This document shows positions 9,680-32,583 of a stretch of 64,000 nt of DNA, one piece after another. Below the pieces are notes generated by a model, which was not told the origin of the DNA, did not search any database, and saw only the letters and a program-made list of their open reading frames with translations. Position numbers and translations under genes: made by a program. This DNA is from Armatimonadota bacterium (GTDB lineage Bacteria > Armatimonadota > Fimbriimonadia > Fimbriimonadales > Fimbriimonadaceae): positions 1 through 64,000 of the forward strand of contig JADFMN010000013.1 of assembly GCA_022563855.1 (NCBI GenBank), given 5' to 3'. How positions within the stretch are numbered: the first letter of the stretch is position 1; each line of letters opens with the position of its first letter.

Positions 9680-9775
9680 CCGCCGTCCTTCGACCGAGCC
9701 CACCATCCGTCATTCTGAGCCACGTCATCCTGGGTCTGTCGAAGGACGAAGGACGGCGGACGCTGGGCGTGGCTC
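9680..9775. repeat. Palindromic dispersed repeat, GTCATCCTG family
   Basis: Two nested inverted repeats are visible: GAGCCACG (9717-9724) with CGTGGCTC (9768-9775), and a 13-bp pair at 9680-9692 and 9747-9759. The core includes GTCATCCTGGG and CGAAGGA, as in the copies around 31021-31610. It would form a strong hairpin in DNA or RNA. Confidence 0.65.
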
Positions 9776-9833: not shown

Positions 9834-9876
9834 TTCCTTCGTCAAGCTCAGGACAGGCTCGCTCAGTATGACGCGC
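9834..9876 (-). repeat. GTCATnCTGAGC-family repeat, inverted
   Basis: Read on the minus strand this gives GTCATACTGAGCGAGCC followed by CTGAGCTTGACGAAGGA. It is a longer variant of the GTCATCCTGAGC...CGAAGGA repeat seen beside the GIY-YIG gene. Confidence 0.55.
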
Positions 9877-27665: not shown

Positions 27666-28509
27666 AGTTCCGAGCTTTGCTCACGGCAACCGACCCGCTG
27701 AACACCTCGCTGGGCGAGGACGTCGCCAGCAGTTCGCCCTGCCAGGAATCCGCCGAAACGGTAGTCTCGCCACCTTTGCTGACCACCCTGATCTCGCCGC
27801 CAAAGCCGCGTCGGCGCATCGCGACAACCGCCGCCGCGCTCGCGCCGGTGCCGCAGCCAAGCGTCTCGCCCGCCCCGCGCTCCCAGATACGGATGCTCAG
27901 CTCAGACTCGCTCACGATCTTGGTATAGATGATGCTTGTGCGCTCGGGGAAGAGGGGGTCGACTTCGATCTTAGGGCTGACGGCAAAAAACGTTCGGTCA
28001 TCGGGAAGCTCGTCCACGAACGAGACGAAGTGCGTGCTTCCGACGTTGACGGCCGTGCCGATAACTCCGCACACGGGCTCTTCGACCAGTTCCGTCTCAT
28101 GAAGTCCGGTGTCGAGAGGAACCGCCTCGGGATCGAAGTTCGCGCGCCCTCCGTCGGTGGAAACGCGCCCGTCCTCATGGACGGTTGCCGACACATTGCG
28201 CCCGCCGTGCTCGATCACGTGGCTGGCAGACACCCAGCCGCGCCGAACCGCATAAAGCGCCGAGCAGCGAGATCCGTTTCCGCAGACGTCCTCGGAGCCG
28301 TCAGGATTGAACATCCGCAGCACTAGCCCGACGCCCTGCGAATCCAAAACCAGAAGCCCGTCGCTACCGATCGACGTGCGCCGGCTGCAGAGCGCTCTTG
28401 CGAGATCCGGCAGGCGCTCGTCGCACGCAACTCGCTTCAAGTCTGAGAGTTGGACGAGCACAAAGTCGTTTCCCACCGACTGCATCTTGCAAAACGGCAG
28501 CACGCTCAT
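27631..28509 (-). CDS. dapF: Diaminopimelate epimerase
   Basis: It epimerises LL- to meso-diaminopimelate for lysine and peptidoglycan synthesis. The two catalytic cysteines are in DVCGNGSRC (Cys76) and LGCGTGASAAAV (Cys219). The N-terminal FCKMQSVGNDFVLV matches the family. At 292 residues the protein carries an extra C-terminal tail (NSSPGGRQVVAR). That tail and its TAG stop are encoded by a dispersed repeat (27631-27665). The start overlaps the upstream 650-aa gene by 4 nt (ATGA). Confidence 0.94.
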   Translation of the reverse strand: MSVLPFCKMQSVGNDFVLVQLSDLKRVACDERLPDLARALCSRRTSIGSDGLLVLDSQGVGLVLRMFNPDGSEDVCGNGSRCSALYAVRRGWVSASHVIEHGGRNVSATVHEDGRVSTDGGRANFDPEAVPLDTGLHETELVEEPVCGVIGTAVNVGSTHFVSFVDELPDDRTFFAVSPKIEVDPLFPERTSIIYTKIVSESELSIRIWERGAGETLGCGTGASAAAVVAMRRRGFGGEIRVVSKGGETTVSADSWQGELLATSSPSEVFSGSVAVSKARNSSPGGRQVVAR

Positions 28510-30458
28510 CTCAGGTGCTCCAAGTAGTAGAACGCCCTTCGCATCGTCGCTTCATACCAGCGTCCGTCAGGCGAGACGAGCGGGAACCACCACGCCGAAG
28601 GGCGGTGCCCGGCGTTGCGCAACCCGTCTGTCGCAATGACCGCTTCTCGGATCAGCTTGAGTCGCATCAGCTCCGCCTCGAAAGCGATCGCCTTGCGGCG
28701 GTCGCCGCTTCTGAGCACCTCCGGACTGTTGACCAGCGCATCCTGCTCCGCCTTGAGATCACGCCAATCTTTCTTGGCCCGCTCGATCTCCTTGGCCACG
28801 CGCGAGACCTCGTGTGTCAATCGCTCTCTCTCGTCAAATTCCGCCTGAGTCGGGCTCCTTTCAAAAATATTCGCGCGCCAGTGAGCGCCCTTTTCGACTT
28901 CGGCTATCGACCGCTGCTCCCTCAACCTCTTGGTGCGCTGCACTAATTCGCTCCTTCGGTCCTTGATCTCGCCAACCTCGGCGTTCAGTGACAGCATCGA
29001 CGCGTTGATCGAGTCGTACTCCGCGCTCAAAGAGCTCCACTGGCCCGCGAGGTGAGAGTCCAAGAACTGGAACAGCTCCAGCGGTCGCCTCAACTCCGCG
29101 AGCTTCGCCAGCAGGGAGGTCTGCTCATCGGCCACGCCTCGCCACCGCTTCGCGAAACTCTCTGCGCTCAGCTCGTCAACTCCGAACGGCCCGCGAAGCG
29201 GAGGGGGCAGTCGGAACCACGACTTGCACTCGATCAGCGCGTCCCAAGGCTCATACCGGACTCGTAGAATCGGCTTCAGCGACAGGTCCAGACCGGCCGC
29301 GGAGAGCTTCTGGTGCAGCAGCCGACTGTACTTGACGTAATTGCTCGCGCCCTCGTGAAACACGAAGACGAACTCTGCCGCGAGCATGCCGATCAGGGTG
29401 ACGGCTTTGCCGACGACTACCACGTCCTCGCCGAACTTGCGTTCGAGAACTCGTGCGAGATCAGAGACGTTCTTCAGCGGCTTCTTGAACGAGAACCCGA
29501 TCGGCTCCGTGGTCATGACGACTCCTCCCCGTTTCCCCAGCTTGAGCGTCCCCCGCCCTCGGCCTGGGATGTAGACGTCGAACGGCAGAGCGCCTGCGCC
29601 AAATCGGCTCAACGGGTAGATCTCTGTGCCCTCGATCGTCTCGTCGTACGCCTTGCACGCCGCATCCCTGGTATTCGGATCGATGAACAGGTTCAGTATC
29701 CGAAAACGGGGCAGGTCGCAAGTACCGGAGTTGAGGCGCAGGAGCACGGTCGTCTTCGTCACCTCAAGATCGACTTCGCTCTTGGATACTTCGCCGTACA
29801 AGATCGGGGCGAGCTTCGCGTAGTAATCGGCCAGGTTCAGGTTCTGACGGTCGTCTGCCGCGTCACAGGCGATCCCCTTCAACCCCTCGCCGACGGCGAC
29901 CGCACGGGCTCGCTCGTCGCCTGCGATACACTCCAAGCTCTCGTCGATCGCCCACTCCAGCGTGTCGTACAGCGGGTCGAACAGCCTGCTCAAAGCCGTG
30001 TCAGCCGTGGTCCTGCTGCTCGGCTCGTAAGAGACAACGCCGCGCCAGCCCCAAGCTTCCGTGATGCCTTCCAGGTATCCCGGCCGTGCGTGGGCGATGC
30101 GGGCAACCTTGCCTCCCGCCGCTGCCAGGCGGTCTCTTCCGATGACGGTCTCTGAGCCGAACAGTGCGGAGAACTCACCTGCGGCGCTCCATATCGCCTT
30201 CGTCGTCGTGTCGTTGTGCGGCAGGGCGTGGTACCCGGTCTTGATCGAGCGGTGCGAGTACTTGGCGAAGTAGTCGGTGTCGTGAATCCCGCACACGAAC
30301 TTGCGCCTGAACCCGAGCCTGTGTCCGGCTTGGATGACGCCGATTTTCAGCGGCTCGTCCCAAAAGACGGTCTGCCCGAGCGCCAAGAACGGTGCGCCCG
30401 GCGCTAGGTTCTCCAACTCGTTCAGAGCGGCAGTCTGCGACCGACAAAACTCTTCCAT
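28506..30458 (-). CDS. Large protein of unknown function, coupled to dapF
   Basis: A 650-residue soluble protein that I do not recognise. Residues ~1-150 contain HDTDYFAKYSHRS and HALPHNDTTTKAIWSAAGEF. The middle has a beta-rich domain (PFDVYIPGRGRGTLKLGKRG; PIGFSFKKPLKNVSD). About 470-590 is a charged coiled coil (RSELVQRTKRLREQRSI; VSRVAKEIERAKKDWRDLK). The C-terminus ends WWFPLVSPDGRWYEATMRRA. The 4-nt overlap with dapF indicates one transcript. TACAAT at 30474-30479 is a likely -10 box. Confidence 0.75.
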   Translation of the reverse strand: MEEFCRSQTAALNELENLAPGAPFLALGQTVFWDEPLKIGVIQAGHRLGFRRKFVCGIHDTDYFAKYSHRSIKTGYHALPHNDTTTKAIWSAAGEFSALFGSETVIGRDRLAAAGGKVARIAHARPGYLEGITEAWGWRGVVSYEPSSRTTADTALSRLFDPLYDTLEWAIDESLECIAGDERARAVAVGEGLKGIACDAADDRQNLNLADYYAKLAPILYGEVSKSEVDLEVTKTTVLLRLNSGTCDLPRFRILNLFIDPNTRDAACKAYDETIEGTEIYPLSRFGAGALPFDVYIPGRGRGTLKLGKRGGVVMTTEPIGFSFKKPLKNVSDLARVLERKFGEDVVVVGKAVTLIGMLAAEFVFVFHEGASNYVKYSRLLHQKLSAAGLDLSLKPILRVRYEPWDALIECKSWFRLPPPLRGPFGVDELSAESFAKRWRGVADEQTSLLAKLAELRRPLELFQFLDSHLAGQWSSLSAEYDSINASMLSLNAEVGEIKDRRSELVQRTKRLREQRSIAEVEKGAHWRANIFERSPTQAEFDERERLTHEVSRVAKEIERAKKDWRDLKAEQDALVNSPEVLRSGDRRKAIAFEAELMRLKLIREAVIATDGLRNAGHRPSAWWFPLVSPDGRWYEATMRRAFYYLEHLR

Positions 30459-30629: not shown

Positions 30630-30956
30630 ATGTCCTATGGAAGCAGCCGAACCAGGCAGCCTCCGAGATCAACCGGTATGCAGGAATCCGCATCCAGCGC
30701 GCGTTCAGAATCGCCTGTCAGCATCAGCATGGCAAGCCAAATTACTGGCGTCGAGGTCCACACCCTGCGGTACTGGGAAAAGGAGTTCCCCGGGTACCTA
30801 AGGCCGAAGCGGACCACCGGAGGCCAGCGACGGTACTCGCCCGAGGACATTCGGACCGTATTCACGCTGAAGCGGCTCCTACGCGACGAGATGTTCAGCA
30901 TCGCCGGCGCCAAGCGCCACCTCGTCAAGATCCACGAAGTCAGCCGAGCCGCCTAG
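30630..30956 (+). CDS. MerR-type helix-turn-helix DNA-binding protein
   Basis: A 108-residue protein. The first ~33 residues are polar and Ser-rich. The rest is a MerR winged-helix domain: ITGVEVHTLRYWEKEF (HTH), TGGQRRYSPEDI (wing) and VFTLKRLLRDEMFSIAGAKRHL. The coiled-coil dimer helix and any effector domain of full MerR proteins are missing, as in the short Armatimonadota/Chloroflexi-type regulators. An internal ATG (SISMASQITG) could also start it. Its targets are unknown. It lies just after the structured-RNA candidate. Confidence 0.8.
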   Translation: MSYGSSRTRQPPRSTGMQESASSARSESPVSISMASQITGVEVHTLRYWEKEFPGYLRPKRTTGGQRRYSPEDIRTVFTLKRLLRDEMFSIAGAKRHLVKIHEVSRAA

Positions 30957-31020
30957 CTTCTGCTTCACTCTCTCAATTGTGGTGCGGCTCTCCAGAGCCG
31001 TACGCAACCAGCCCGATAAC

Positions 31021-31239
31021 CGTCATCCTGAGCGAAACGTAGGCGCGCGGAGCCAGCCCCAGACCCGTCATCCTGAGCGAAACGTAGGCGCGCGGAGCCA
31101 GCCCCAGACCCGTCATCCTGAGCGAAACGTAGGCGCGCAGAGCCAGCCCCAGACCCGTCATCCTGAGCGAAACGTAGGCGCGCGGAGCCAGCCCCAGACC
31201 CGTCATCCTGAGCGGATCGAAGGAGCGCGGGTCTGGGGC
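31021..31239 (+). repeat. Tandem array: four 45-bp units plus one variant unit ending in hairpin
   Basis: Units start at 31021, 31066, 31111 and 31156, nearly identical, each beginning CGTCATCCTGAGCGAAACG and ending AGCCCCAGACC. The fifth (31201) changes to CGTCATCCTGAGCGGATCG and is closed by an inverted repeat: GCCCCAGACC (31191-31200) with GGTCTGGGGC (31230-31239). There are no unique spacers, so this is not CRISPR. The last unit is repeated in reverse orientation beyond the GIY-YIG gene. The array fills most of the 311-bp gap 30957-31268. Confidence 0.93.
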
Positions 31240-31268
31240 GGTCGCATCGAGGTAGAGTTCTCGCCAAT

Positions 31269-31568
31269 GTGAAGTACCCCGCCGTCTACATGCTCGAATG
31301 TCGAACAGGAAAGTTCTACATCGGAGTCACGTCCGATCTCGAATACAGGCTGTCGGAACACGAGCACGGAGTAGTCGAGGGTTTCTCGAAGTGGAACGGA
31401 CCGTACCAACTGGTCTGGTCCACGAGCTTCCCAGACATGGATCAGGCGATTCAGTTCGAGAAGAGAATCAAGGGTTGGCGGCGAGAAAAGAAGATCGCCT
31501 TGATCGAGGGGCGAATCGAGGACCTGCCGGGGCTGGCGCTTCCTTATAATGAGCGAGAAGTTCAGTAA
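31269..31568 (+). CDS. GIY-YIG-domain nuclease-like protein between inverted repeats
   Basis: A 99-residue single-domain protein. The GIY-YIG features are VYM (residues 6-8), FYIG (16-19), Arg27 after the second strand and the metal-binding Glu64 in QFEKRIKGW. It resembles the YhbQ/UvrC-N class and may nick DNA. The GTG start at 31269 follows TAGAGT by 10 nt. The flanks are the key feature: a 31-bp perfect inverted pair (31200-31230 and 31577-31607), each inside its own hairpin, with a tandem array of the same repeat upstream. Confidence 0.85.
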   Translation: MKYPAVYMLECRTGKFYIGVTSDLEYRLSEHEHGVVEGFSKWNGPYQLVWSTSFPDMDQAIQFEKRIKGWRREKKIALIEGRIEDLPGLALPYNEREVQ

Positions 31569-31570
31569 CC

Positions 31571-31610
31571 CCCCACCGCGCTCCTTCGATCCGCTCAGGA
31601 TGACGGTGGG
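31571..31610 (-). repeat. Inverted copy of GTCATCCTGAGCGGATCGAAGGA repeat, hairpin-closed
   Basis: Its reverse complement matches 31200-31230 over 31 bp. Its own closing stem is CCCACCG/CGGTGGG, different in sequence from the left copy's GCCCCAGACC stem. A conserved core with variable stems is therefore likely. Confidence 0.88.
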
Positions 31611-31629
31611 CGGTACAAAGCTTCTTTAG

Positions 31630-32511
31630 CTAGCTCTGGCTCGGAAGGGCCGGTTCTTCCGGCTCCTCGATCGGAACTGACGCCTTAATTTTCTCCAGCT
31701 TCTGCTCGAAGATCGCAAGGCTCCGCCCTTTCAGACCACTTTCGCCGCCGTCCAGCATCTTTGCCAAAGCTACACACTCCTTGCGACTGAACCGAGCGCC
31801 GTGAAGCGAGTGCTCCTCGAACGCCTCATAAGCAAGCGGTGAGACGGCCCGCGCACACCTAGCCATCGCCTCAGCAAAGACCCGGATCTCGTACTGCGCA
31901 TGGCTGTCCATCCGCAGGCGCAGAAAGTGGAACAGGTTGTGGAGGTCGATCTGCCAATACCACTCCGTGTAGAGCGAAAGCGGAAGGTTCGTTCGCGCCA
32001 ACTCCCGTGCCAGGCCCTCGTTGATCATCCCCTCGTAGTGCTCGTAGATCACAGCCTGGTCGTCCACCAGCTCTTTGAGCATCTTCTCAACCACCGGGTC
32101 AGCGAGCGTCTCGTCGCTGCGCGCCTGTTTGTTGTCGCTGCTCTGGCAACGCATCTGGTCTTTGGCAGGCACGTAGAACTCGTCCTTCATGATCGAGTAC
32201 CGCCCGCTGATCTCGTTGAGCCGCGCGGTCCTGTGCCGCACCCACTGGCGCGCGACGAAGATCGGCATCTTCGTATGGAACGTCAAGATCACCTGCTCGA
32301 ACGGGCTGGTGTGCTCGTTGCGCAAAAGGTAGTGGATCAGCCCGCGATCTTGCCGCACGGTCTTCGTGCCTGCACCGTAGCTCACCCTCGCAGCCTGAAC
32401 GATGCGATCGTCCCCTCCCAGGTAGTCCACCAGCCGCACGAACCCCTTGTCGAGGACTTTGATCTCCTGGTCGATCAGGGCATCGGCTTCGGGGACGACA
32501 GTTCGGGCCAT
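31630..32511 (-). CDS. thyX: Flavin-dependent thymidylate synthase
   Basis: It makes dTMP from dUMP using methylene-tetrahydrofolate, FAD and NADPH. The ThyX motif RHRTARLNEISGRYS spans residues 92-106. Other conserved parts are ARVSYGAGTK, HTSPFEQV and LPLSLYTEWYWQIDLHNLFHFLRLR. At 293 residues it carries an acidic, Pro-rich tail (PIEEPEEPALP). ATG 32511 is chosen because CAAAAT lies 6 nt upstream; the frame continues upstream without conserved sequence. FolD, encoded at 20127, feeds the same folate pool. Confidence 0.95.
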   Translation of the reverse strand: MARTVVPEADALIDQEIKVLDKGFVRLVDYLGGDDRIVQAARVSYGAGTKTVRQDRGLIHYLLRNEHTSPFEQVILTFHTKMPIFVARQWVRHRTARLNEISGRYSIMKDEFYVPAKDQMRCQSSDNKQARSDETLADPVVEKMLKELVDDQAVIYEHYEGMINEGLARELARTNLPLSLYTEWYWQIDLHNLFHFLRLRMDSHAQYEIRVFAEAMARCARAVSPLAYEAFEEHSLHGARFSRKECVALAKMLDGGESGLKGRSLAIFEQKLEKIKASVPIEEPEEPALPSQS

Positions 32512-32583
32512 TGATCGATTTTGGCACGGCGTGCTGCAACGCGGCCGGCCCGTTTCCCGCAATGTTCTTAACAGGGCGGCGCC

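Follow-up and report, generated by a model that had tools for sequence, protein, structure and literature searches.

Why does a gene for a very small nuclease lie between inverted copies of a repeat that is scattered throughout its genome, and does the enzyme spread this repeat? The question arises from a stretch of bacterial DNA of 64,000 nucleotides, here called the window. A preliminary description, made from the letters of the window, likened the layout to REP sequences and their RAYT transposases, with a GIY-YIG nuclease in place of the transposase. As anatomy and as association this view is strongly supported by the comparisons reported here. The locus is probably a REPtron-like mobile unit, i.e., a Slx1/UPF0213-like GIY-YIG gene bounded by inverted cognate REP-type hairpins. 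The association is observed; from it we infer that the enzyme cuts the repeats and takes part in their spreading.

The nuclease gene and its repeats

The gene has a GTG start and encodes a stand-alone protein; its position and the length of 99 aa are as first described. GIY-YIG (Pfam PF01541, E 9.8e-16) is the sole domain found in it. The usual catalytic positions are occupied by Y7, Y17, R27, H31, and E64, each at least 95% conserved among 97 homologs. By domain and catalytic residues the protein is a member of the GIY-YIG superfamily. A profile search of the PDB returned BH0048 (1zg2) and EF2693 (1ywl) with E-values of 5.9e-14 and 5.5e-11, and a Foldseek search with the predicted fold gave 1zg2 (UPF0213 BH0048) as the best match, with Slx1 also among the nearest. 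Being stand-alone, about 95 aa in size and similar to BH0048 and EF2693, it belongs to the small UPF0213/COG2827-like GIY-YIG proteins. A search of NCBIfam matched no family. Two other assignments were considered and rejected. A PADLOC search gave no match to a known or candidate anti-phage defence family, and a search for a phage origin matched none of 50,697 phage records. Further upstream in the window, at 28506-30458, a 650-aa ORF matches neither Pfam nor NCBIfam; its relatives are conserved beside merR and thyX in related genomes.

Table 1. Positions of the nuclease gene, its repeats and the extra segment in the window.
Feature	Position	Strand	Remarks
GIY-YIG nuclease gene, 99 aa	31269..31568	+	Pfam, homolog conservation, predicted fold
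Left arm of the 31-bp inverted repeat	31200..31230	+	
Right arm of the 31-bp inverted repeat	31576..31606	-	
Upstream gene-proximal REP-like hairpin, outer stem GCCCCAGACCCG/CGGGTCTGGGGC round the core, tag away from gene	31191..31239	+	DNA fold z -5.3
Downstream REP-like hairpin, different outer stem CCCACC/GGTGGG, tag away from gene	31572..31610	-	DNA fold z -2.75
Array of the same repeat, 45-bp unit four times in tandem, outer (tag) side	31021..31200	+	Cores at 31022, 31067, 31112, 31157
Diverged, shorter repeat relative (GTCATTCTGAGCC... and partial second copy)	9680..9775	+	Match at 9709
Diverged repeat relative (GTCATACTGAGCGAGCCTGTCCTGAGCTTGACGAAGGAAAG)	9834..9876	-	Match at 9861-9872
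Extra segment between merR (30630-30956) and thyX (31630-32514)	30957..31629	.	Gene order of relatives

The gene is enclosed by a perfect 31-bp inverted repeat, CCGTCATCCTGAGCGGATCGAAGGAGCGCGG. The preliminary description was right about the perfect match and the left arm; the right arm, placed there at 31577-31607, lies one base lower. Folding bears out that each gene-proximal copy is closed by its own hairpin with a different stem. The upstream 45-bp units fold poorly (DNA z +1.0), unlike the gene-proximal hairpins. That there are four of them is confirmed by five forward cores, the last of which, at 31202, belongs to the gene-proximal repeat. The shorter relatives reported more than 20 kb upstream are real, though diverged. 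In the 64-kb window as a whole, 8 matches to the repeat core with at most one mismatch were observed vs 0.53 expected.

CGTC REPs are defined by a tag CGTC, TGTC, or CCTC, a stem of 8-9 bp beginning with AT, a loop of 4-5 nt and a CCA-like tail (Di Nocera et al., 2013, PMC3733652). The window repeat contains the tag CCGTC. Its inner stem has 4 bp and is mismatched at the base, and a long stem is located outside the tag. A stem of 8-9 bp starting from AT directly after the tag and followed by a CCA tail is not present, and assignment to the CGTC superfamily was rejected. With the tag present and the standard stem missing, the repeat is termed REP-like here and is left out of CGTC-1 to CGTC-4.

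Pattern searches of the 3.18-Mb genome found 83 exact copies of the core GTCATCCTGAGC vs 2 of a reversed control pattern. A second GIY-YIG gene, 90% identical, lies within the same repeats on a different contig. The homology of the two loci comprises array, gene and downstream repeat (window 31002-31610; the second copy carries an insert). It ends at 31610 with the outer arm of that downstream repeat; the flanks are unrelated. In 20 repeat copies of this genome the core is constant and the outer-stem pairs vary with compensation; the sixth pair is A-T, G-C, T-A, or C-G in all 20. The outer stem in these copies (L014-L077) comprises 8-14 bp and covaries strongly, with up to four pair types per position. 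Such covariation may stem from fold-back copying, from selection on structure or from insertion into the tips of hairpins. Most REP copies have diverged. This is a point against a mobile unit, since the copy sequences thus do not support recent movement.

Linkage and cognate pairing across bacteria

When 84,980 species genomes were scanned by the protein motif only, 80 loci were obtained. Together with the relatives of the window and named plasmid records they represent at least 17 phyla according to the record labels. Three plasmid-labelled records of 2.2, 3.7, and 4.9 Mb (CP119142.1, CP090106.1, AP026896.1) are probably mislabelled chromosomes. Usable flanks were available for 88 loci. In 68 of these the gene is framed by GTCAT-tagged REP hairpins on both sides or by an inverted repeat (13 nt or longer) that spans it, vs 3 of 268 other ORFs at the same loci (Fisher p about 1e-50). 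The proposal had been made to depend on related GIY-YIG genes adjoining such repeats, and evidently they do. The nearest repeats are mostly less than 100 bp away from the gene with the tag usually directed outward (46:15 and 33:17). In cruder tests, inverted repeats of at least 14 nt were present in 40% of gene-centred vs 0.9% of distal windows, and hairpins on both sides at 48 of 90 loci vs 1 of 307 controls. The both-side counts are underestimates because the hairpin detector is blind to the repeat of the window itself and to the CCTC and CGTCAC types. UvrC-type GIY-YIG genes are a weak control, with short fetched flanks and two scorable cases.

The same pattern of gene plus repeat exists at further loci in the phylum of the window. 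Near homologs in relatives (L035, L036, L037, L038, L045, L040) are accompanied by arrays of another palindromic repeat, GTCAT being common to all. Two settings are mentioned for themselves. In plasmid p1 of Planktothrix agardhii (L189) a GIY-YIG/REP unit has a type IIL restriction enzyme (MmeI-like) on one side and the DISARM helicase drmA on the other. In one genome (G186, L309-L312) a subclade marked by a K-Y-x-R motif is represented by four paralogs, which are set between long palindromes with inverted repeats of 17-59 nt, three of them without GTCAT.

Do protein and repeat belong together? Over 53 loci the distance between proteins correlates with the distance between repeat arms (rho 0.43). 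When only cross-phylum pairs are considered, and the duplicate locus L137 (= L040) is left out, rho is 0.42 (p 2e-4; 0 of 5000 permutations reached this value). Host phylum and repeat type are not correlated in the 53 loci (rho -0.001). Thus, the repeat type follows the protein, not the host phylum. In part, the coincidence of close proteins with close repeats may reflect transfer of whole blocks rather than recognition. Genomes with two genes are instructive. In G038 one gene is surrounded by CGTCATGCTGAGC (152 genome copies, 0 of the control), the other by GTCATTCCCGCG (19 copies, 1 of the control), and G187 and G159 likewise possess two genes with a different repeat at each. The copies in G038 include many head-to-head pairs; most of the 20 that were fetched have a spacing of exactly 94 bp and a diverged interior. 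Extra 26-bp units are stacked outside these pairs, and the 45-bp array in the window is likewise on the tag side.

The repeats at four loci (L045, L185, L187, L193) are CGTC REPs by tag, stem, loop, and tail. In Neisseria gonorrhoeae the GIY-YIG gene is located among dRS3 repeats. dRS3 of Neisseria has been equated with CGTC-1, and the CGTC REPs also include RPE-4 and RPE-6 of Rickettsia; no associated mobiliser gene was reported for them, and a dedicated transposase was stated to be lacking (Di Nocera et al., 2013, PMC3733652). As the gene recurs together with its own repeat in at least 17 phyla, the GIY-YIG enzyme is likely the missing partner of the CGTC-tagged REPs.

Occupied sites, empty sites and genome-level distribution

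Empty sites in relatives were a check named at the outset, and they were found at two loci. In three relatives of the window genome (G015, G002, G025) thyX and merR are close neighbours, and the gap between them contains neither such a gene nor a GTCAT hairpin. In Azospirillum lipoferum 4B the interval between sufB and sufC contains a GIY-YIG gene flanked on either side by a REP dimer; at this position both gene and REPs are missing from A. ramasamyi, A. oryzae, and strain B510. In A. ramasamyi the matched flanking DNA is 97.9% identical to that of A. lipoferum. Occupied vs empty orthologous sites, as at Azospirillum suf and thyX-merR, and more than one location, as with the two sites in the window genome, are the marks of a mobile element. 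As a point against such an element, the ends of the insertions are blurred, without a clean target-site duplication and, in Azospirillum, with a local difference of about 70 bp. The sufB-sufC gap was entered independently by two GIY-YIG/REP units, L187 in A. lipoferum and L249, with a different REP, in Shinella sp. PSBB067.

Among 205 genomes from the phylum of the window the gene is distributed patchily (52 of 205). At least 20 cores are present in 16 of 43 genomes with a strong homolog vs 12 of 162 without (p 5e-6), a test with a single core which under-counts genomes with other cores, e.g., G038. The reversed core gave no significant difference between gene-positive and gene-negative genomes in the same set. 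An equal abundance of the repeat in gene-less genomes, which the preliminary description had named as speaking against its proposal, is not what is observed, although some gene-less genomes keep the repeat. G027, G043, G051, and others have well-formed repeats, but a small GIY-YIG gene was not detected in these genomes. Remnants of this kind are also seen in RAYT-REP systems, but they are what speaks most against a simple rule of one gene to one repeat. Since the contigs of draft assemblies frequently end in such repeats, some of the absences may be false. G027 contains 67 repeat cores; neither a small GIY-YIG gene nor a Y1 transposase was found in it.

Possible spreading, rival explanations and known systems

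How might such a unit move? The nuclease would recognise a REP hairpin or cruciform by its structure, the GTC-AT tag and the arm sequence, and would nick or cut at the REP, near the tag. If the break were then repaired, or replication restarted, by means of another REP copy, REPs and at times the complete unit could be copied into intergenic positions not occupied before. Alternatively, one more REP might be added at a tag already present, and tandem arrays would result. Dispersed REPs and head-to-head pairs would be non-autonomous, the enzyme acting on them in trans. The chemistry of GIY-YIG enzymes is hydrolytic and is not known to join DNA ends; hence joining must be done by host repair. 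The window protein is a minimal catalytic domain without a separate DNA-recognition domain, which counts against the proposal.

The strongest rival is homing into pre-existing repeats. REPs spread by another agent would serve as landing sites; the nuclease would cut gene-free REPs and the gene would copy itself in via REP homology arms, as a selfish gene that did not give rise to the REPs. In favour of homing, the GIY-YIG fold is classic for homing endonucleases, in the window genome the repeats far outnumber the genes (83 vs 2), and some genomes keep REPs without the gene. Yet the empty sites of sister species are devoid of REPs as well as of the gene, and the repeat type tracks the protein across phyla, not the host, which is unexpected if REPs are a property of the host. 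Both observations weaken homing, and the paralogs of one genome, each in a different repeat, speak against it too, so that we consider it unlikely. A housekeeping pair is less probable still. A domesticated Slx1-like host resolvase of cruciforms or branches would clear problems caused by REP hairpins, and the linkage would signify co-regulation, not mobility. The Slx1 branched-DNA nucleases among the nearest folds and the covarying outer stem kept by the REPs of the window genome would suit this explanation. It is opposed by the patchy distribution, by the missing gene at the orthologous sites of sisters, and by a repeat type uncoupled from the host phylum; further, a resolvase acting in trans needs no adjacent location.

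That RAYT-type HUH transposases move these REPs, as they do GTAG REPs, with the GIY-YIG gene as passenger or accessory, is also improbable, although Y1_Tnp genes occur in 16 of 18 genomes checked. In the window genome none of the nine Y1_Tnp genes is within 11 kb of a listed core, by which we reject RAYT as the local partner, whereas REPs stand close on either side of both small GIY-YIG genes. One genome (G102, L264) has gene and REPs without any Y1_Tnp, which together with the distant Y1_Tnp genes weakens this reading, and no tyrosine transposase flanked by CGTC REPs was found in the earlier survey (Di Nocera et al., 2013, PMC3733652). Coincidence, i.e., small genes falling into intergenic DNA where REPs are common, has next to no probability. 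REPs are indeed largely intergenic, yet small ORFs at the same loci are framed by repeats in 1 of 82 cases vs 68 of 88 for GIY-YIG genes, and inverted repeats of at least 16 nt span the gene at 23% of the loci vs 0 of 326 distal windows. These gene-centred controls rule out chance and intergenic bias.

A mobile unit driven by its nuclease thus remains our preferred reading. Tentatively, it can be extended to the CGTC-REP superfamily as a whole, which throughout bacteria would have stand-alone GIY-YIG nucleases as its dedicated mobilisers. If true, there would be a class of mobile elements in which a hydrolytic, structure-selective nuclease of about 95 residues spreads hairpin repeats by cut-and-repair without transposase, recombinase, or reverse transcriptase, parallel to and independent of RAYT/REPIN. 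Genomes would then have a second, chemically different route for gaining hairpin repeats. CGTC REPs, Neisseria dRS3 included, are among the most widespread bacterial repeats, and the agent of their spreading was not settled by the survey of 2013; given a cognate enzyme, the question can be put to experiment with short oligonucleotides and a single small protein. Such an enzyme would also account for the very common annotations 'GIY-YIG nuclease family protein' and 'excinuclease ABC subunit C'. In the open literature (5.39 million papers), including a REP survey of 2025, we found no earlier report of a link between GIY-YIG and REPs; preprints and most subscription papers are outside this scope, and priority is uncertain.

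What do these units resemble? GIY-YIG nucleases are established drivers of selfish elements, namely of homing endonucleases and Penelope elements. With the I-TevI type and the endonuclease-containing Penelope elements the window unit shares this feature; it differs in having no intron, reverse transcriptase, or separate DNA-binding domain and in being bounded by REP hairpins. UPF0213/COG2827 proteins and Slx1 are alike in sequence (UPF0213 structures) and predicted fold, whereas Slx1 requires Slx4 and possesses a RING domain. The survey of the GIY-YIG superfamily noted no repeat association for the UPF0213/COG2827 cluster (PMC1564403). The CGTC REPs have the same tag, stem, loop, and CCA-like tail as the repeats at L045, L185, L187, L191, L193, and L264, and their carriers overlap with carriers of the gene, by species or genus: Neisseria, Novosphingobium aromaticivorans, Azospirillum lipoferum, Sinorhizobium meliloti, and Sphingobium. 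Several species or genera listed as CGTC carriers in 2013 are also among the named plasmid hits. The window repeat has the tag in common with the CGTC REPs, yet its inner stem is broken and an outer stem is added. REPtrons, i.e., RAYT (TnpA-REP, HUH Y1) with GTAG REPs/REPINs, are alike in a gene flanked by inverted or dimeric REPs, in many dispersed non-autonomous copies and head-to-head pairs, in several gene/REP types per genome, and in REPs which persist where the gene was lost. The window unit itself is not a REPtron of the RAYT kind: it has GIY-YIG only, its tag is GTC, and Y1_Tnp genes are more than 11 kb away from any listed core. In general, the GIY-YIG units lack an HUH/Y1 domain and their tag is C/TGTC-AT, not GTAG; REPtrons join DNA via phosphotyrosine, whereas hydrolytic chemistry is expected for the GIY-YIG unit.
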